Shown here: one piece after another, positions 25,786 through 32,887 of the stretch
Position numbering within the stretch: position 1 is the first letter of the stretch
Layout: each line of letters starts with the position of its first letter
Source: Sphingorhabdus sp.
GTDB taxonomy: Bacteria > Pseudomonadota > Alphaproteobacteria > Sphingomonadales > Sphingomonadaceae
NCBI GenBank assembly: GCA_023262005.1
Contig: JALREL010000154.1
Coordinates: forward strand, 1-46,758
Length of the DNA: 46,758 bases
Direction: 5' to 3'
Program-made: the position numbers and the translations under genes
Notes under the pieces: generated by a model
The model's input: only the letters and a program-made list of their open reading frames with translations
Databases searched by the model: none
What the model was told of the DNA's origin: nothing

Positions 25786-26475
25786 TCAACGACCGGTCCA
25801 GCTCGACAGTTCCTCGATGCTCAAAGTGCGATGGAACTCGACGCCGATTGAGTCGCTGGCTTGCCATTTGACGCTGCCAGAAATCGGACGCAGTGCATCA
25901 TAGCTTATTTGCACGCGCGTATCGATCGGAAGGAAGCGGTCGAACTTCAGCTTCGCTCCGCGCTGAGAAAGGTCGCAGATCCGTGCATCGGCGAGGTAGC
26001 CGCCCACCCGAAGGGTGACAGGCAGATCGAGGACGATCCTGGGCGCGCGGGGCTTGAAGCCATGGGGTGTCTCCGAGCCGCGGTTCAGCGCCTGCTCCAC
26101 TGACACCCAGTCGAAAAATTTGATGCCGAACGAGTTGCCATCCTGCCAGACGACCTCGCCTTCGATCCGGTCTCCATCGGCGAGCGATACGGCGACATGC
26201 TCGCCATTTTCGAAACCCAATTTGGTTTCGACTTGCATTCCGTCCTCCGAAATATTGCGAACGATGGCAAGACCTTCGACATCGTGGATGCGGCTGGAAA
26301 GTCTTGCGGCTCTGAATATCGTGCGATCGCGGGGCGACGTGCGATAATCTTCCGCACTCTTTTCATCGATCGTGGTTTCCGAGTTTGTTTGTTCGCCAGT
26401 CGCCTTTGAAAGCTTGCGACTGCTGTTCTTCTGGAATCCACCGAAAGTGCGAGACAGAATTTCGCGCATCTTCAT
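25786..26475 (-). CDS. Double PilZ-domain protein
   Basis: A 229-residue soluble protein with two PilZ-like repeats. The first (about 50-130) has RAARLSSR and NISEDGMQVETKLGF, ending in GNSFGIKFFD. The second (about 145-222) has PRAPRIVLDLPV and DLSQRGAKLKFDRF, ending in SIGVEFHR. The RxxxR and D/NxSxxG elements that bind cyclic di-GMP are recognisable but not perfect, so binding by either repeat is uncertain. The first 45 residues are polar and Lys/Thr-rich. It starts on the stop codon of the exported-protein gene (TAATG) and is the last gene of a three-gene set, so it likely senses c-di-GMP for that system. Confidence 0.85.
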   Translation of the reverse strand: MKMREILSRTFGGFQKNSSRKLSKATGEQTNSETTIDEKSAEDYRTSPRDRTIFRAARLSSRIHDVEGLAIVRNISEDGMQVETKLGFENGEHVAVSLADGDRIEGEVVWQDGNSFGIKFFDWVSVEQALNRGSETPHGFKPRAPRIVLDLPVTLRVGGYLADARICDLSQRGAKLKFDRFLPIDTRVQISYDALRPISGSVKWQASDSIGVEFHRTLSIEELSSWTGR

Positions 26476-27032
26476 TACTCCATTCTCATCCGGTAGCGCA
26501 GGATAAAGCTTGATGTCTGGGGTCGATCTGGCTGAATGTCAGGTTTTAGGCGAAAGCGAACATGAGTGATGTTCGGATCAAAGCCTTCGCGATCAGGCGT
26601 CGGACTGTAATCAAAACTCGCTCCGCCATTATCTGAGAATTCGACGCAATCTGCCGGGTTGGAAAGCGACTCAAATTTGCAGTCGAAGCCGCTACCGCCA
26701 TTTGCAGGCTCATAGGCGAAGGGCCCGCTGCCCATGCCAATATCTCCGACGAAGAGGCTCAATTCATCGGGAACGGGGTTTGCTATTACCGGACCGCGCT
26801 GTTCGGCAAGGTCGCTGGGTATATTGGAAACGCGCATTTCATATTCCAAGACAGCGTCCGGAATGGCCTTTGGGTTGGATGCGCTGATGCCGTCAGAAAT
26901 GATTCGGCTGGATATATCGATGCTGGGTGCGAGCAGTTGAGCTGCGGCAACGCTATCAAAGCCTCCCATCGCGCCGATCAGCGCGACAACATATGCCCCT
27001 TGCGGCAATGTGGCTTTGGTAAAAATGCTCAT
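26475..27032 (-). CDS. Predicted exported protein with DUF11-like domain, function unknown
   Basis: A 185-residue protein. Residues 1-31 contain a hydrophobic stretch (GAYVVALIGAMGGFDSVAAA) that could be a signal peptide. The rest resembles a single DUF11-type beta-sandwich: SNPKAIPDAVLEYEMRVSN, IANPVPDELSLFVGDI, then SDNGGASFDYSPTPDREGFD and a closing FILRYRMRM strand. In other alphaproteobacteria such modules occur in secreted or surface proteins; no activity is known to me. Two Cys (FDCKFE and PADCVE) could form a disulfide. It is coupled on both sides: ATGA with the upstream small gene and TAATG with the PilZ gene. Confidence 0.7.
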   Translation of the reverse strand: MSIFTKATLPQGAYVVALIGAMGGFDSVAAAQLLAPSIDISSRIISDGISASNPKAIPDAVLEYEMRVSNIPSDLAEQRGPVIANPVPDELSLFVGDIGMGSGPFAYEPANGGSGFDCKFESLSNPADCVEFSDNGGASFDYSPTPDREGFDPNITHVRFRLKPDIQPDRPQTSSFILRYRMRME

Positions 27033-27337
27033 TGATAATCGACGATCCAGTATTCCTGACTTTTGCTTGCTCCACCGTCTGACACGATCCGACGTTTGGA
27101 TTTTGGTGCGTTCCGGCTTTGCGGGTTTTGGGAATTCGGCTTTGCCTGCACCTCGCGTTCAACGTCTGAGGTGGCATCAACTATTTCGACTTGCGCCGCT
27201 GCTGGTTGGGAAAATGTGCTCTGCGCCGGCGCTGATGTGTGTGGGCGTAGCGCCGGCGCAGATAAGGAAACGGGACTGCTCATCAGGGCCAAGCTCTGGA
27301 CCAGCACAAGCTTAGCCACGAGACAGGTCGCTTCCAT
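27029..27337 (-). CDS. Small predicted exported protein, function unknown
   Basis: A 102-residue protein without recognised homology. The N-terminus (LVAKLVLVQSLALMSSPVSLSAPA) looks like a signal peptide. The remainder is polar and disordered, rich in Ser, Pro, Gln and Asn, with a basic KSKRR patch and an aromatic end (EYWIVDYQ). It is supported as a gene by the ATGA overlap with the next gene and by its position directly after an AT-rich promoter-like region. The Shine-Dalgarno is weak. It is probably the first gene of a set with the DUF11-like and PilZ proteins. Confidence 0.6.
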   Translation of the reverse strand: MEATCLVAKLVLVQSLALMSSPVSLSAPALRPHTSAPAQSTFSQPAAAQVEIVDATSDVEREVQAKPNSQNPQSRNAPKSKRRIVSDGGASKSQEYWIVDYQ

Positions 27338-27387
27338 GACGTTACATTCGCAGGAAATTAGACAGATTATCAGTTTGACACCGTCTC

Positions 27388-27414
27388 ATGCATATAAATA
27401 CTACATATATGCAT
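27388..27414. promoter_or_regulatory. Inverted repeat upstream of the small exported-protein operon
   Basis: ATGCATATA (27388-27396) and TATATGCAT (27406-27414) are perfect 9-base arms with a 9-base spacer, about 50-80 bases upstream of the start at 27337. The surrounding sequence is much more AT-rich than the genes. Likely a regulator site or promoter element. Confidence 0.45.
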
Positions 27415-27428
27415 TTCAGGCAGTTTTA

Positions 27429-27444
27429 ATACTATATATAGTAT
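27429..27444. promoter_or_regulatory. 16-base perfect palindrome
   Basis: ATACTATATATAGTAT reads the same on both strands, with no spacer. It lies 14 bases beyond the preceding inverted repeat in the same AT-rich gap and contains TATA-type -10-like sequence on both strands. Confidence 0.5.
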
Positions 27445-27460
27445 ATCGCAGTAACAGAAG

Positions 27461-27482
27461 TTAACGGGTGTTAAGGGTGTTA
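27461..27482 (-). promoter_or_regulatory. TTAA-N6-TTAA and tandem GGGTGTTA repeats
   Basis: TTAA at 27461-27464 and 27471-27474 are six bases apart, close to the CtrA form TTAA-N7-TTAA. GGGTGTTA occurs twice in tandem (27466-27473 and 27475-27482), 9-base period. The second copy overlaps the stop codon of the upstream regulator gene. Assignment to CtrA is inference; the spacing is one base short. Confidence 0.3.
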
Positions 27483-29138
27483 CATGGGGTTTTGAGCTGT
27501 TTGACTGGGTTGAACCAGCACTTTTTGCGCCACGAGGAACGATATTATGCGTGAGCGGATCTGCTGCGAAACAACGATATGATTCAAGACTTCTTCGGGG
27601 TCATCAGGACGGCTTCCCACGATTTTGGCGAGGGAGTTCCAATGGGGTTTTGCACGCTCGGTATTGCCTTGAGATGCAGCAATCAAAGCCTCGCACAGAT
27701 GATAGTAAGCAGGGCTGAAACTGATTCCGTCTGCCGGGGAAGAGGATAGAGCAATCAGCCGTTCCTGATCGTTTCGCCTTATGCTTGCGAGGATAAGGGT
27801 TAGCCGTGAAAATGTTTCGCCAGGTGTCCTCTGATCAAAAGCCTGATCGATCAGTAATTCGGCACCGGGCATTCCACATTCCGATGCGAAATTACCCAGG
27901 ATCGCCAACAGCACCGGATCATACGGATTGGCTTCAACCGCGTGGGTTGTGTGCGCGTTGCCGGCTTCGCATCGACCCATTACATAATGGAGGCGGGCTT
28001 CAGCAAAATGGGTGTAAGCTTCTTTGGGCTCATTCGCGACCGCTCGCGACGATAGGGCCTGGGCTTGTTTGAAACGGGCAGCCCTGTTTTCCGGGGTGGA
28101 TGTTTCAATCAGGAAAAAGCTTCGAATAGCCAGACGCACCGCATCCAATCGGGAATCGTCAATCGAGGATTTCAGGCACTTATCAAGTGCCGGCCTCATA
28201 GCGAGATCCTGGGTCCTTAGATAAGTGACATAGCGCATCAGGCAGGCGTAACCATATTGATGGTCGTCCACAGTCCGCTCTGCTTCTCGCTTGGCAATGA
28301 TCCCGAATGGGCTTGCCAGTTGCGCGATGCTCGGTCCTAAATTTGCCGGTGCATCCTTTTCCGGTTCCAGCCAAGCGGTTGATGACCAAACAAGTTCAGA
28401 TGAGCGTGTTTCGGTCAACCGCAGATAAAGCGGGTGACGGCCCTCCCGCAATTTGCCGAGCCTCGCCTGCAGTTGATAATCCGCTTTGGCCTTCTGGCTG
28501 GCTTGATCCGCCTTTTCCTGCTGCAAGTGTATGCGTACGGCCCATGAACGTCCCAGGCCGTCGACCAGTTCGGCGAACACGTCATCGGCAGCAGCGACGG
28601 TTTCCGCGTCATCCGATGATTGAATGGCGTTGACCAGAATGGTGGGAACAACGGCTGTCCTGGGCGGCTGGGCCCTGGCAACGTCCGAATGGTACATTCC
28701 GCTCAGCCAATAATAAGCGGCGGCTACGACCATCGTAATTGCGAAAGAAAATGCGAGGATTGAGGCAATTTCTATCCCGACTTTGGGTTCAGCGTCGTCA
28801 AATGGTTCAGCAGGTTTCGGTGTTGGTTCGGGTTCCCCCGACGCGTCGTCCATGACTGGATATGGCGTTGGGCGATTGGTGGATAGCGGACGGAACAATT
28901 CGGGATAGGCCGTTTCGGGTGGGCCCACGCGAACCTTGTAACTCCCTGCGACCATATATAGGCACAGCCCATCCGAAGGCAGGTTCTTTGAATAAAAGGC
29001 TTCGAGCAGTTTTCGCAGCCGCATGGTCTGGACACGAGGGTAACTGTCCGATTTCGCATCAAAATCGGGACTCTTGCCTAGGCAATCAACGGCGACGGTA
29101 TAGCTCTTCAGCTTGTCCGTCGTCAGAACATTTGGCAC
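27480..29138 (-). CDS. Membrane regulator with TPR-like region, probably 5'-truncated
   Basis: A 552-residue protein from GTG 29138. Residues 10-72 (KSYTVAVDCLGKSPDFDAKS, then DSYPRVQTMRLRKLLEAFYS) match the end of a winged-helix-like domain found before adenylate-cyclase or TPR regions in alphaproteobacteria. Homologues as I know them carry about 35-45 more residues before this point, which are missing. A Pro-rich linker follows, one membrane segment (121-145) and a helical TPR-like region (about 330-530: EAYTHFAEARLHYVMGRCEA, NPYDPVLLAILGNFASECG). The IS element begins 38 bases upstream and no other in-frame start lies between. It probably once controlled the exported-protein set downstream. 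Confidence 0.65.
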   Translation of the reverse strand: MPNVLTTDKLKSYTVAVDCLGKSPDFDAKSDSYPRVQTMRLRKLLEAFYSKNLPSDGLCLYMVAGSYKVRVGPPETAYPELFRPLSTNRPTPYPVMDDASGEPEPTPKPAEPFDDAEPKVGIEIASILAFSFAITMVVAAAYYWLSGMYHSDVARAQPPRTAVVPTILVNAIQSSDDAETVAAADDVFAELVDGLGRSWAVRIHLQQEKADQASQKAKADYQLQARLGKLREGRHPLYLRLTETRSSELVWSSTAWLEPEKDAPANLGPSIAQLASPFGIIAKREAERTVDDHQYGYACLMRYVTYLRTQDLAMRPALDKCLKSSIDDSRLDAVRLAIRSFFLIETSTPENRAARFKQAQALSSRAVANEPKEAYTHFAEARLHYVMGRCEAGNAHTTHAVEANPYDPVLLAILGNFASECGMPGAELLIDQAFDQRTPGETFSRLTLILASIRRNDQERLIALSSSPADGISFSPAYYHLCEALIAASQGNTERAKPHWNSLAKIVGSRPDDPEEVLNHIVVSQQIRSRIISFLVAQKVLVQPSQTAQNPM

Positions 29139-29175
29139 AACTCGCGGCGTAGGTTTGCGGAGTGCGGGCCTCGTC

Positions 29176-29195
29176 TGAGGTTTGATGTTAGGCGG
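29176..29195 (+). repeat. IS left terminal inverted repeat
   Basis: TGAGGTTTGATGTTAGGCGG aligns with the right-end repeat when one gap is allowed. It begins 12 bases beyond the orfB stop. Confidence 0.55.
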
Positions 29196-30168
29196 CGAGC
29201 CTGCGGTGTTGCAAGCGCCGATGTTCGAGTGTCTTTCGCTTGATCCTTTCTCTTCGTTTGATGATGGCAGGGGCCCTGCCGAAGTAGGTATCGGCAGGTG
29301 TCACATTGTCGAGGCTCTCGTGGTATCGGCAGTGGTTGTAATGCTCGACGAAGGCCTCGATCTGCTGGTGGAGATCGCCGGGCAGGAAGTAGTTCTCTAG
29401 CAGCACGCGGTTCTTCAGGGTCTGGTGCCAGCGCTCGATCTTGCCTTGGGTCTGTGGGTGGAAGGGTGCGCCGCGCACGTGGCTCATCTTGTTGGCCTCG
29501 ATGTATTCGGCCAGTTCGCCAGCGATGTAGCTGGGGCCATTATCGCTGAGCAGGCGGGGCCTGTGCAGCACGTTGGCGTGATCGCAGCCTGAGGCTGCTA
29601 GCGCCATATCGAGCGTGTCAGTGACGTCCTCGGCTCGCATGGTGGTGCAGAGCTTCCATGCAATGATGTAGCGCGAGTAATCGTCGAGCACGGTCGACAG
29701 ATACATCCAGCCCCACCCGATGATCTTGAAGTAGGTAAAGTCTGTCTGCCACATCTCATTCGGGCGCGTGGTCTTCGTGTGGAACGCCTCTGCCGCCTTG
29801 ATCACCGTATAGGCCGGGCTGGTGATGAGGTCGTGGGCCTTGAGCAGGCGGTAGACCGTGGCTTCGGACACGAAGTAGCGCTTCTCGTCGGTGAAGCGCA
29901 CCGCCAGCTCTCTCGGCGATAGCTCGCTGTGTTCCAGAGCCATGTCGACGATCTGATCCTGAACCTCGGGCGCGATCCTGTTCCACACCCGGCTCGGCGT
30001 CGATGGCCGGTCTGCCAGCGCTTCGGGCCCGCCTTCAAGGTAGCGATCATACCAGCGGTAGAAGGTCCGGCGAGCAACGCCGAGCTGGTCCAGCGTGCGC
30101 TTGGCGGGCAGGTGCGATTGCTCGACGATCCGGATGATCTCGAGCTTCTCGGATGCGGGGTATCTCAT
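29188..30168 (-). CDS. IS3-family transposase OrfB (DDE integrase core)
   Basis: A 326-residue frame from ATG 30168. The catalytic triad is Asp143 (WQTDFTY), Asp209 (LLSDNGPSY) and Glu245 (GKIERWHQT); 35 residues lie between the second Asp and Glu, the classical DD(35)E spacing. A helix-turn-helix lies upstream (about 10-45, VARRTFYRWYDRYLEGG). The frame overlaps orfA as ATGA. The functional transposase is expected to be an OrfAB fusion made by -1 frameshifting. The catalytic residues are intact, so the element may be active. Confidence 0.93.
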   Translation of the reverse strand: MRYPASEKLEIIRIVEQSHLPAKRTLDQLGVARRTFYRWYDRYLEGGPEALADRPSTPSRVWNRIAPEVQDQIVDMALEHSELSPRELAVRFTDEKRYFVSEATVYRLLKAHDLITSPAYTVIKAAEAFHTKTTRPNEMWQTDFTYFKIIGWGWMYLSTVLDDYSRYIIAWKLCTTMRAEDVTDTLDMALAASGCDHANVLHRPRLLSDNGPSYIAGELAEYIEANKMSHVRGAPFHPQTQGKIERWHQTLKNRVLLENYFLPGDLHQQIEAFVEHYNHCRYHESLDNVTPADTYFGRAPAIIKRRERIKRKTLEHRRLQHRRLAA

Positions 30169-30539
30169 TCGTCGCCTCCCCCATCCGCGATCATGCTTTT
30201 TTTGAGCAAGCGGTTCTCCAGGGTGAGGTCGGCCACGCACTCCTTCAGGTCGCGGGCCTCACGGCGCAGGTCCTTCACCTCGTCCGTGGTCGCAGCGCGG
30301 GCCGTGTCACCGGCGAGGCGACGCTTGCCAGCCTCCATGAACTCTTTGGACCAGGTGTAATACAGGCTCTGGGCGATACCCTCGCGGCGGCAAAGCTCGG
30401 CAATGGAGTCATCGCCTCGTAGCCCATCGAGCACGATCCGGATCTTGTCTTCCGCTGAGAAGTGTCGGCGGGTCTTGCGGCGGATGTCCTTTACCACCTG
30501 TTCGGCGGGCTTTTTGGAGCTTGAGGATTTGGGCTTCAT
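30165..30539 (-). CDS. IS3-family transposase OrfA (helix-turn-helix)
   Basis: A 124-residue protein. Lys-rich N-terminus, then an HTH_Tnp_1-type domain (RRHFSAEDKIRIVLDGLRG, SIAELCRREGIAQSLYYTW; about 25-65) that binds the IS ends, then a leucine-zipper-like helix (LRREARDLKECVADLTLENR; about 91-110). Near its end a run of seven A precedes G at 30203-30196, with the frame reading AAA AAA AGC. A slip of -1 on the A-run enters the orfB frame at AAG. Confidence 0.92.
   Translation of the reverse strand: MKPKSSSSKKPAEQVVKDIRRKTRRHFSAEDKIRIVLDGLRGDDSIAELCRREGIAQSLYYTWSKEFMEAGKRRLAGDTARAATTDEVKDLRREARDLKECVADLTLENRLLKKSMIADGGGDE
30196..30203 (-). other. A7G slippery site for -1 frameshift
   Basis: Seven A followed by G on the minus strand, 29 bases before the orfA stop codon. 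The -1 frame is that of orfB. This fits the programmed frameshift used by IS3-family elements. Confidence 0.7.
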
Positions 30540-30574
30540 CTTCGTTCCTTCGTCACTACGACGAAGCCCAAATC

Positions 30575-30594
30575 CTCCTTAAATCACAACCTCA
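30575..30594 (-). repeat. IS right terminal inverted repeat
   Basis: Read inward on the minus strand it is TGAGGTTGTGATTTAAGGAG, matching the left repeat imperfectly. It lies 36 bases upstream of the orfA start. Confidence 0.55.
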
Positions 30595-30660
30595 AATCTG
30601 TGCCATTGGCGCTGACGGGGGACACAGGATTTTGTCGGATTCCTTGCCGATTATCTCAAA

Positions 30661-31293
30661 TTGCGTGATTGCAATTGTAGCATCTACGGGTCTGCAGAGT
30701 CGCTCTTGCAATCGGGCGGTGTCGACCAATACGACTTTTTCATTCTTGATCTCGGATTGCCTGGAATTGACGGCGTGGATCTGACGACGTTGATCCGGGC
30801 GCGAAGCACCGCTGGGATACTGATCGTGAGCGGCCGGCTAGGCCCCGATGCCTTTAACTCGGCATTGGCCGCAGGAGCGGACATGTTCGTCAACAAGCCG
30901 GTTCGCTTTGACCAAGTTTACCATGCAATCCAGTCGATCTGGCGCCGCTTTGCCGAACCGCGTGCACGCGCGAGCAATTGGATGATATCTTTCGATCATT
31001 CCAAACTCATTTCTCCGCTCGGCAATCAAGTGTCGTTGACCCCGGTGGAAGGGCGATTGATCCAATGCTTGCGCAAGGCAGCCGGAAACCCGGTGTCGCG
31101 GGCAGAACTTGCAGATGCTGCTGGTATCGCTGCCAGCCAGGATCACCGCAATCTCGATGCTGCCGTATTCCGTTTGCGCCGCAAGATTGAACGCGACGCG
31201 CGTTGTCCGTCGCCGTTTCGCACGGTGCATGGCATCGGTTATCAACTAAGCGAAGAAATCGAAGGCGGTAACGCGGGATCCGCAGCAGGATGA
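30661..31293 (+). CDS. OmpR-type response regulator lacking its N-terminal end
   Basis: From TTG 30661 there are 210 residues. The receiver retains the phosphate-accepting Asp30 (FFILDLGLPGIDG) and Lys79 (GADMFVNKPV). It lacks the first beta strand with the paired acidic residues. The frame is open back to a stop at 30613, and codons 30628-30660 read DFVGFLADYLK, the expected first helix, so the gene once began further upstream. Residues 105-200 form a winged-helix DNA-binding domain (SLTPVEGRLIQCLRKAAG; AVFRLRRKIERD; FRTVHGIGYQL). It overlaps the kinase gene by ATGA. The missing 5' end faces the IS element, so this copy is probably crippled. Confidence 0.8.
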   Translation: MRDCNCSIYGSAESLLQSGGVDQYDFFILDLGLPGIDGVDLTTLIRARSTAGILIVSGRLGPDAFNSALAAGADMFVNKPVRFDQVYHAIQSIWRRFAEPRARASNWMISFDHSKLISPLGNQVSLTPVEGRLIQCLRKAAGNPVSRAELADAAGIAASQDHRNLDAAVFRLRRKIERDARCPSPFRTVHGIGYQLSEEIEGGNAGSAAG

Positions 31294-32675
31294 ACATCCC
31301 CTACGCGATAGGATTCAGCTATCTCTATATGGGGCACATAGTTGCCTTCTCGATTTGTTACATCCTTCTCGAACGTGTAAATGCACCGGTCGTTATTTGG
31401 CTGCTGTCCAATGTGATAACGACTTCAGGGTTCGTGCTGGCATCGACCCAACTCTTCGAAAACAAGGATCTTGGCGCCCTGATATGGGCGGTCTTGTTTT
31501 TATCCGGCAGCGCATTGAAAACCGCTGCATTCAGCGATCGTCGGCTGTTCAGAAAATCAAACAGACTGCCGCATGCGTTGCTCGTTTGCGGATTATTGGT
31601 TTCGATGTCGTTGCTGATCGACGTGCAATCGCCTTACCGACTGCTGCTAATCTTGGTCTGCGGGATATTGTTTTGCATCAGCGGTATCCTTTTTCTTTTG
31701 CGCAATCGTGCCTGGAAGGGATTGCGACCCACCAATTTGACAATTTGGGTTCTCACAATTTCAGCCGCTGCACTTTCGACGCAGTTGCCGAATGCCTATC
31801 CCTTTGGCGACATGACCAGGTTCGCTGGTCGGATCAATTTGCTTGCGGTTATCATCCTGTCCTTCCTTTTTGAAATCGCCTTTTTCGGGATGATCGTGTC
31901 GCGTCAGGTTCGCGATCAATTGCTCCAGTCCAAACGTGCGAACCGGCTGCAACGCCAGGCGATCCAGCTGAAGGAGAAGGGGCAGATCAGCGCAGAACTT
32001 GCGGACGAACGCTATCATTTGTTGAAGATGCTAACACACGAAGTACGGCAACCTTTGAACACCGCGCAAGCTGCGCTGCAGACGGTGCTTCAGGAAATCG
32101 CGGGCGGAAAGGGAAAACCTGATATCATCCGCTCGGCCGTCGATCGCGCCAGCATCACGCTGAATTCGATCTCACTCTCGATATCCAATTCGATCCTCGG
32201 TGCCACGCTTATTACCAAGGGACGTGCTGCCCAATTCGAGTTGATCGATTTATGTGCGGTATCGCAGCTGGCACTTTTGGATATCAATCCGCGTGACCGT
32301 AACAGGGTCGTGACGCGTTATGATCAGGAGATAGTCTATGCGGAGGCGGATCCTATCGTCCTGCGTTTGGCGCTCAGGAATTTGCTCGAAAATGCGATCA
32401 AATATTCGGTTCCCGGTTCCACGGTGAATTTCGAAATCGTTCTCTGTGAAGATGAGTTGTCGACTTCGTTCAGGGTTTCCAATCTGGTGAAAGACGCATC
32501 GATGATGGAAGGAAACATCATCGAACGTAACAAACGGGGTGTGGATAGCCGGTATGAGGGCTACGGGCTTGGCCTGTACATCGTCAAAGAAGTGGCGAAT
32601 CTGCACAAGGGGCAGTTGAAATATGATGTAGGTGAGGATTCGATCGTCACCTTTGAAATCATAATTCCGAGCTAG
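31290..32675 (+). CDS. Membrane histidine kinase
   Basis: A 461-residue sensor. Residues 1-205 hold about seven to eight hydrophobic segments with only short loops, so the ligand is probably sensed in the membrane or relayed by a partner. The dimerisation/phosphoacceptor domain has His250 (KMLTHEVRQPLN). The ATPase domain has the N box NLLENAIKYS (364-373) and a G box GYGLGLYIVKEV (424-435). A D-x-G-x-G G1 box is not obvious. It is coupled to the truncated response regulator by a 4-base overlap and is most likely its partner. No terminator was seen after it. Confidence 0.9.
   Translation: MNIPYAIGFSYLYMGHIVAFSICYILLERVNAPVVIWLLSNVITTSGFVLASTQLFENKDLGALIWAVLFLSGSALKTAAFSDRRLFRKSNRLPHALLVCGLLVSMSLLIDVQSPYRLLLILVCGILFCISGILFLLRNRAWKGLRPTNLTIWVLTISAAALSTQLPNAYPFGDMTRFAGRINLLAVIILSFLFEIAFFGMIVSRQVRDQLLQSKRANRLQRQAIQLKEKGQISAELADERYHLLKMLTHEVRQPLNTAQAALQTVLQEIAGGKGKPDIIRSAVDRASITLNSISLSISNSILGATLITKGRAAQFELIDLCAVSQLALLDINPRDRNRVVTRYDQEIVYAEADPIVLRLALRNLLENAIKYSVPGSTVNFEIVLCEDELSTSFRVSNLVKDASMMEGNIIERNKRGVDSRYEGYGLGLYIVKEVANLHKGQLKYDVGEDSIVTFEIIIPS

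Positions 32676-32812: not shown

Positions 32813-32887
<75 letters not shown>

Follow-up and report, generated by a model that had tools for sequence, protein, structure and literature searches.

The stretch of DNA studied here (the window) is the 46,758 nucleotides of contig JALREL010000154.1, from a Sphingorhabdus sp. It contains two opposed groups of genes. The minus-strand arm encodes a double-PilZ protein, two putative exported proteins and a membrane regulator, and the plus-strand arm encodes a response regulator and a membrane histidine kinase. A preliminary description had taken them for one two-armed regulatory locus. The genes are present, but the arms are divided by an insertion sequence (IS), at whose ends both facing regulators have lost their 5' parts. 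The reading we favor, with moderate confidence, is that these are two separate accessory gene groups, both surface-related, and that an event involving an IS3-family element truncated the regulators that faced each other. Judging from the sequence, the minus operon is probably a surface-protein module linked to cyclic di-GMP (c-di-GMP). An IS-associated event that cuts the 5' ends of two regulators is a natural case of surface-gene rewiring. The vague two-armed locus is in this way recast as two testable statements, and the minus arm is worth following.

Two regulator genes cut short at an IS3-family element

The features of the region, with the evidence for each, are:

25786..26475, minus strand: double-PilZ protein P0001, 229 aa (Pfam PilZ in two stretches; motif columns)
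26475..27032, minus strand: stand-alone DUF11-like protein P0002, 185 aa, probably exported (18-row alignment; AlphaFold model)
27029..27337, minus strand: small exported-protein candidate P0003, 102 aa (open reading frame, hydrophobic N-terminus, ATGA overlap)
27338..27479, minus strand: 142 bp gap upstream of P0003, candidate own promoter of the operon
27480..29113, minus strand: 3' part of the gene of the membrane-anchored regulator P4 (alignment with intact relatives; one transmembrane segment)
29114..30624, no strand assigned: insertion sequence of the IS3 family, 1511 bp, with ends TGTCC...GGACA (ends taken from copies in other genomes)
30165-30539 and 29188-30168, minus strand: transposase open reading frames of the IS (Pfam transposase domains in 29188-30539)
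30625..31293, plus strand: OmpR-type response regulator gene, 3' part only (aligned with 5 intact relatives; Response_reg from model position 14)
31290..32675, plus strand: multi-pass membrane histidine kinase, 461 aa, frame intact (HATPase_c; LTHEVRQP)
32813..32887, minus strand: tRNA-Thr (GGT), bounding a variable slot on the right (adjoins pyrD in all 5 genus-mates fetched)

The open reading frames (ORFs) named in the preliminary description were all confirmed, at 25786-26475, 26475-27032, 27029-27337 and 27480-29138 on the minus strand and at 30661-31293 and 31290-32675 on the plus strand. The overlaps reported among the minus genes are also there: ATGA joins the genes of P0003 and P0002, and TAATG, an overlap of one base, joins those of P0002 and the PilZ protein.

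Between the arms, the IS directly adjoins two opposed genes, each without its 5' end. The base before the IS continues the minus-strand gene at 'LKSYTVAVDCLG' and the base after it continues the plus-strand gene at 'QDFVGFLADYL'. In five intact response regulators, 14-22 extra residues, including the conserved Asp cluster, stand just before 'DFVGFL'; the window protein is without the N-terminal strand and the acidic pocket of the receiver. Upstream, its frame is closed by a stop inside the IS, 4 codons ahead of the IS end, and the first ATG, GTG or TTG comes at residue 13 of the remaining sequence at the earliest. The DNA-binding domain is kept (Pfam Trans_reg_C, 51.2 bits, cut-off 26.2). On the other side P4 has lost at least 46 codons of its DNA-binding region, as 5 intact relatives carry 46-65 residues before the junction, although their annotated starts are possibly too far upstream. 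The P4 frame as predicted (P0004, 552 residues) begins with a GTG at 29138 that lies within the IS. No complete N-terminal winged helix was found in it, nor a Pfam Trans_reg_C match, and it has a single transmembrane segment (residues 141-159 of P0004). The TPR-like region previously attributed to this protein has weak backing, a Pfam TPR_17 match at E 0.082 that stays below its cut-off. Presumably the layout of P4 is of the CadC/ToxR type, with an N-terminal DNA-binding region, one transmembrane segment and a C-terminal TPR-like part. It departs from that type in the lost N-terminus of the window copy and in the sub-threshold TPR match; Trans_reg_C matched neither the intact paralogue L088 nor the P4 of genome G089. 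The remaining parts of both regulators are free of frameshifts. Neither facing regulator is intact in this genome.

Since the flanks of the IS are two opposed 5'-truncated genes, a single simple insertion is ruled out, and the IS must have been the site of a deletion or recombination. The transposase passes the IS3 model NF033516 of NCBIfam (189.3 bits, cut-off 160) and scores slightly below the cut-off of the IS481 model (213.7 bits against 224). The assembly holds a single DNA copy of the element. No target-site duplication was found at the window IS, and it is equally absent in six of the seven other full copies (L093-L095 and L098-L101), so that its absence says little alone and we rejected it as proof of deletion on its own. 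The sole copy with a duplication, L098, has one of 8 bases, which is unusual for an IS3-type element. According to PMC11708052, missing duplications at other IS elements often come from adjacent deletions or recombination. The cases described there resemble ours in the lack of a duplication and in the missing DNA beside the IS; they differ in that here the original site is unavailable and the copies elsewhere are mostly without duplications (6/7). We propose that the IS3-family element would have removed the inter-arm DNA together with both regulator 5' ends, by deletion or by recombination.

The source assembly is a metagenome-assembled genome (MAG) of 2.55 Mb, 82% complete and in 234 contigs. 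An assembly artefact could have joined two loci at the IS repeat, in which case the truncations would be unreal; only one IS copy was assembled, to which others could have collapsed, and the missing target duplication would fit such a join. We think this decidedly unlikely because a single interval, syntenic in the genus-mates G369 and G438, contains both sides of the IS. In these two genomes the left-side genes (a lyase and a transporter, names assigned by eye) are followed within ~5 kb by tRNA-Thr(GGT) and pyrD, as to the right of the window locus, and gene order is kept on both window flanks. Therefore both IS sides are at the expected place.

The arms themselves are missing from the genus-mates. 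In all five that were fetched, the corresponding DNA has other genes and no match to either arm at 1e-8 (with a query gene set without P0003). Kinase, P4 and PilZ protein had no match in four genus-mates at the limits used, and the kinase profile had none in the 7 genus-mates listed. In the genus-mate G532 the acyl-CoA synthetase is on a 5.1-kb contig in a different context and the arms are absent. The locus is accessory cargo in a variable slot beside tRNA-Thr.

The two arms in other genomes

The preliminary description put the exported proteins and the PilZ protein under the control of the two-component arm. That would require one working locus, with the response regulator and kinase directly controlling the minus arm. 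The arms are indeed close together and divergently oriented, the kinase frame is intact and the regulator remnants carry no frameshift. However, the response regulator is left without acidic pocket and normal start, and P4 without its DNA-binding start. Elsewhere, each arm occurs without the other. A response regulator or kinase occurs in none of nine loci that carry the PilZ module described below, and minus-arm genes occur in none of four long response-regulator/kinase loci (tblastn, 1e-5 in both cases). We consider joint control very improbable.

The kinase is a many-pass membrane protein, as had been described: a simple hydropathy scan gives six hydrophobic segments, and HATPase_c of Pfam is clearly above its cut-off (1.7e-10, 41.8 bits against 26.4). 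HisKA stays below (20.6 bits, cut-off 26.9), with H250 in LTHEVRQP invariant in 7/7 aligned sequences. An ATGA overlap couples its gene to that of the response regulator. Relatives of the kinase were found in 4 of the 248 other genomes of the family (1e-25) and, by an order-wide profile scan, in 2 of 395 other genomes (1e-45). For these counts 4-6 candidates were scored per genome, and the order sample may omit G035 and G228. Within the genus of G228, two genomes of 13 have a relative, G228 itself and G579.

In G228 and G106 the regulator is divergent from genes for a pilin-like protein, a chaperone and an usher-like protein of 927 residues, and from one more small gene. The model of the G228 chaperone (predicted local distance difference test, pLDDT, 72.3) is of the PapD/Caf1M type (Foldseek 4.1e-10, prob 1.00, TMq 0.40). 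PDB sequence searches gave nothing for the usher-like protein and only nine unrelated dehydrogenases for the chaperone. The usher-like protein is no more than a candidate, with a Pfam Usher match of just 0.058, in a relative. In G172 one of the genes that the regulator faces encodes a CsgG-family protein with a strong match to HfaB (184.5 bits) that stays below the cut-off of 300. The response regulator/kinase pair is of a rare kind that faces adhesin-type operons in three relatives. It is these relatives, in G228, G106 and G172, that resemble two-component pairs next to chaperone-usher or holdfast-anchor genes; the window differs from them in having no such operon and a truncated regulator. 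Three loci (in G172, L075 7890-10845; in G106, L076 7520-10395; in G579, L228) have two tandem kinases of this family beside one response regulator.

The PilZ operon and its relatives

The minus operon consists of a small exported protein, an exported protein with a single DUF11-like domain of predicted immunoglobulin (Ig)-like fold and, coupled to the latter, a cytosolic double-PilZ protein, the localizations being predicted. The double PilZ assignment of P0001 held well, with two stretches (Pfam, E 5e-21, 75.4 bits against a cut-off of 22.5). RxxxR followed by [D/N]xSxxG is the c-di-GMP motif of PilZ domains. The first domain has RxxxR and NxSxxG, with R45, R49, N74, S76 and G79 (numbering of the P0001 alignment) invariant in the nine aligned proteins from five genera. 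Binding of c-di-GMP through the first domain is therefore likely. An alternative is that the protein acts as a protein partner only and that the module is outside c-di-GMP control. The second domain, with a partial motif and by eye without RxxxR in the nine aligned sequences, would suit it, but the first domain keeps both motif parts in 9/9, and we judge this alternative unlikely. Compared with known PilZ c-di-GMP receptors, P0001 is alike in its PilZ matches and complete first-domain motif and differs in having two PilZ domains, of which the second has a partial motif, and in the coupling of its gene to that of an exported Ig-like protein.

P0002 had been called a DUF11-like exported protein. 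This stands through its relatives, as 14 of the 18 aligned family members have a TIGR01451 match (E up to 0.1; best 3.5e-6), but P0002 itself hits no model of Pfam or NCBIfam. Its AlphaFold model is a beta-rich domain (pLDDT 81.4) of middling likeness to Ig-like adhesin and pilin domains (best VIA Z 7.5, under 8). Foldseek returned no match to the model at 0.001 or better and a PDB profile search with the family nothing under 0.016. What P0002 shares with the DUF11/TIGR01451 surface-protein repeats is its alignment to the C-terminal domains of larger proteins and the TIGR01451 matches of its relatives; it differs from these repeats in that one domain is the whole protein, that it has no hidden Markov model match of its own and that it is paired with PilZ. 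As for the 102-residue exported protein, P0003, the ORF and its hydrophobic N-terminus are present, but its codon signal is weak (0.044 per codon, against -0.028 for the antisense ORF), and Pfam has no match to it.

P0002-like sequence occurs in 62 of the 248 other genomes of the family, and among those listed it is mostly inside longer frames, some of which adjoin a 1.7-kilo-residue exported protein. Neighbors were examined at the 29-30 best places, made into loci, out of all matches. Stand-alone frames of the P0002 kind (P2) in G245, G114 and G029 adjoin exported proteins of ~1,670 residues and not PilZ, in a check that left out G244. Against the idea that the 185-residue protein always accompanies the PilZ protein, most of the listed homologues are parts of larger proteins with other neighbors.

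The situation is different in the genus of G089, whose stand-alone P2 is the best-scoring other relative of P0002. Of the 32 genomes of this genus, 9, G089 among them, carry a stand-alone P2 gene with a double-PilZ gene after it, a count that leaves out a short frame in G564 (38% identity). In all nine a small exported protein precedes P2 and PilZ is directly behind it, with a spacing of 0 bp in eight loci and 1 bp in one; P4-like genes are downstream in the 8/8 loci long enough to tell. The earlier suggestion that the exported protein and the c-di-GMP-type PilZ protein are made together is in this way supported, since the coupling recurs in 9/9 loci with a close stand-alone P2. In three further genera, a double-PilZ gene is within 1.5 kb of P4-like genes (5 of 29 loci). 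The P4 search (80 of 249 genomes, own included) contains IS-end matches, as its query began with 28 IS-derived residues. Loci L229 (4314-5876), L230 (5092-6654) and L231 (5907-7481) have an extra P4-related protein, convergent with PilZ, with what by eye resembles a canonical winged-helix domain at its N-terminus.

The stop-start coupling, being conserved, suggests that receptor and exported protein are made in a fixed ratio. Tentatively, the minus arm could represent an undescribed kind of c-di-GMP output system in a second and diverged version. In such a system a double-PilZ receptor would be coupled to an exported Ig/DUF11-like protein, with membrane-bound winged-helix regulators alongside, and the coupling would set the ratio of receptor to surface protein. 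In the reading we favor, the PilZ protein would bind c-di-GMP by its first domain and adjust export or surface display of the Ig-like protein made with it, with an adhesion-type output. Beside the minus operon there would once have been a winged-helix regulator, anchored in the membrane and TPR-like in its C-terminal part, that set transcription of the operon; here, without its native regulator in working form, the operon would run from its own promoter or by read-through from the IS. All domains are of known kinds and what is new is their combination; literature of partial coverage gave no locus with these genes together. The coupling of a PilZ gene to one for an exported Ig-like protein, seen in two genera, offers a candidate route from c-di-GMP to a surface protein in this group.

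How alike the window arm and the module of the G089 genus are was examined with trees (duplicate rows L082, L090 and L108 left out, and also L127; the PilZ and P2 trees omit two of the nine module loci, L230 and L233). Window P4 joins its own-genome paralogue L088 (100/99), with long branches flagged by the program, and the next nearest are the PilZ-adjacent P4s of three further genera (94/87). Gene order differs as well, P4 being upstream in the window and downstream in the module.

Several points weigh against the reading we favor. The 15 module P4s form a group of their own with window P4 outside, and an inherited linkage of P4 with the module found no support in this tree; among PilZ loci only 1/29 has P4 in the flanks. 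The window protein is unplaced in the PilZ tree, and P0002 groups with the module P2s at just 84/65. P0003 shows no detectable homology to the module small protein, the sole family with which it was compared (hhalign probability 0.1), so that its homology to the small proteins of the G089 genus was not accepted as shown, a result that counts against the proposed co-occurrence of the 102-residue protein with PilZ. Two of the three loci that make the adhesin link have a near-identical operon (usher-like proteins 88% identical), the G579 kinase locus reveals too little, and the neighbors in G035 are unclear. No intact version of the two-arm locus was found in the genomes searched. The state of the MAG and the little that the missing duplication tells, both given above, count on the same side.

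The weak trees and the unrelated small protein mean that either the module has undergone much divergence or genes of like kinds were brought together repeatedly, and the gene sets of the window and of the G089 genus may have been assembled separately. Such repeated assembly, with no single inherited module, fits the separated P4s, the unplaced PilZ protein, the weak P2 grouping, the small proteins that are not homologous by test and the changed gene order. Against it, the best other relative of P0002 is precisely the stand-alone P2 of G089, grouped with it at the support given, and the P2-PilZ coupling is identical in kind. We regard it as quite possible, though short of even chances. Common descent of the minus arm with the G089-genus module is weakly supported by the sequences. 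Our confidence in two separate gene groups truncated by the IS3-family event is lowered slightly, to moderate, and the weight of repeated assembly is raised, because most IS copies are without a duplication and the tree support is weak.

Promoters, mobility and other occurrences

The promoter scan gave 4 sites against 4.3 in shuffles, with none on the minus strand in 27338..27479, and promoter- and terminator-like sites were no more numerous than in shuffles. Between 25000 and 34000 only the tRNA reached an Rfam gathering score. Among plasmids there was no match for P0002 (1e-5) or the kinase (1e-20), and three matches for PilZ at 24-31% identity. Among the five genus-mates fetched (L165-L169), the DNA upstream of tRNA-Thr(GGT)-pyrD differs by eye, and in one of these slots (L166) there is a gene that by eye resembles a serine recombinase.

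Elsewhere in the source genome, exported DUF11-like proteins of 347, 157, 348 and 1,696 aa follow one another (G000:C215 3526-11296, L170). Similar runs in G096, G077 and G002 end in a protein of 580-770 aa with a P0002-like domain, and G035 (L078 7657-13290) has three tandem copies of proteins of ~610 aa with P0002-like C-terminal domains.

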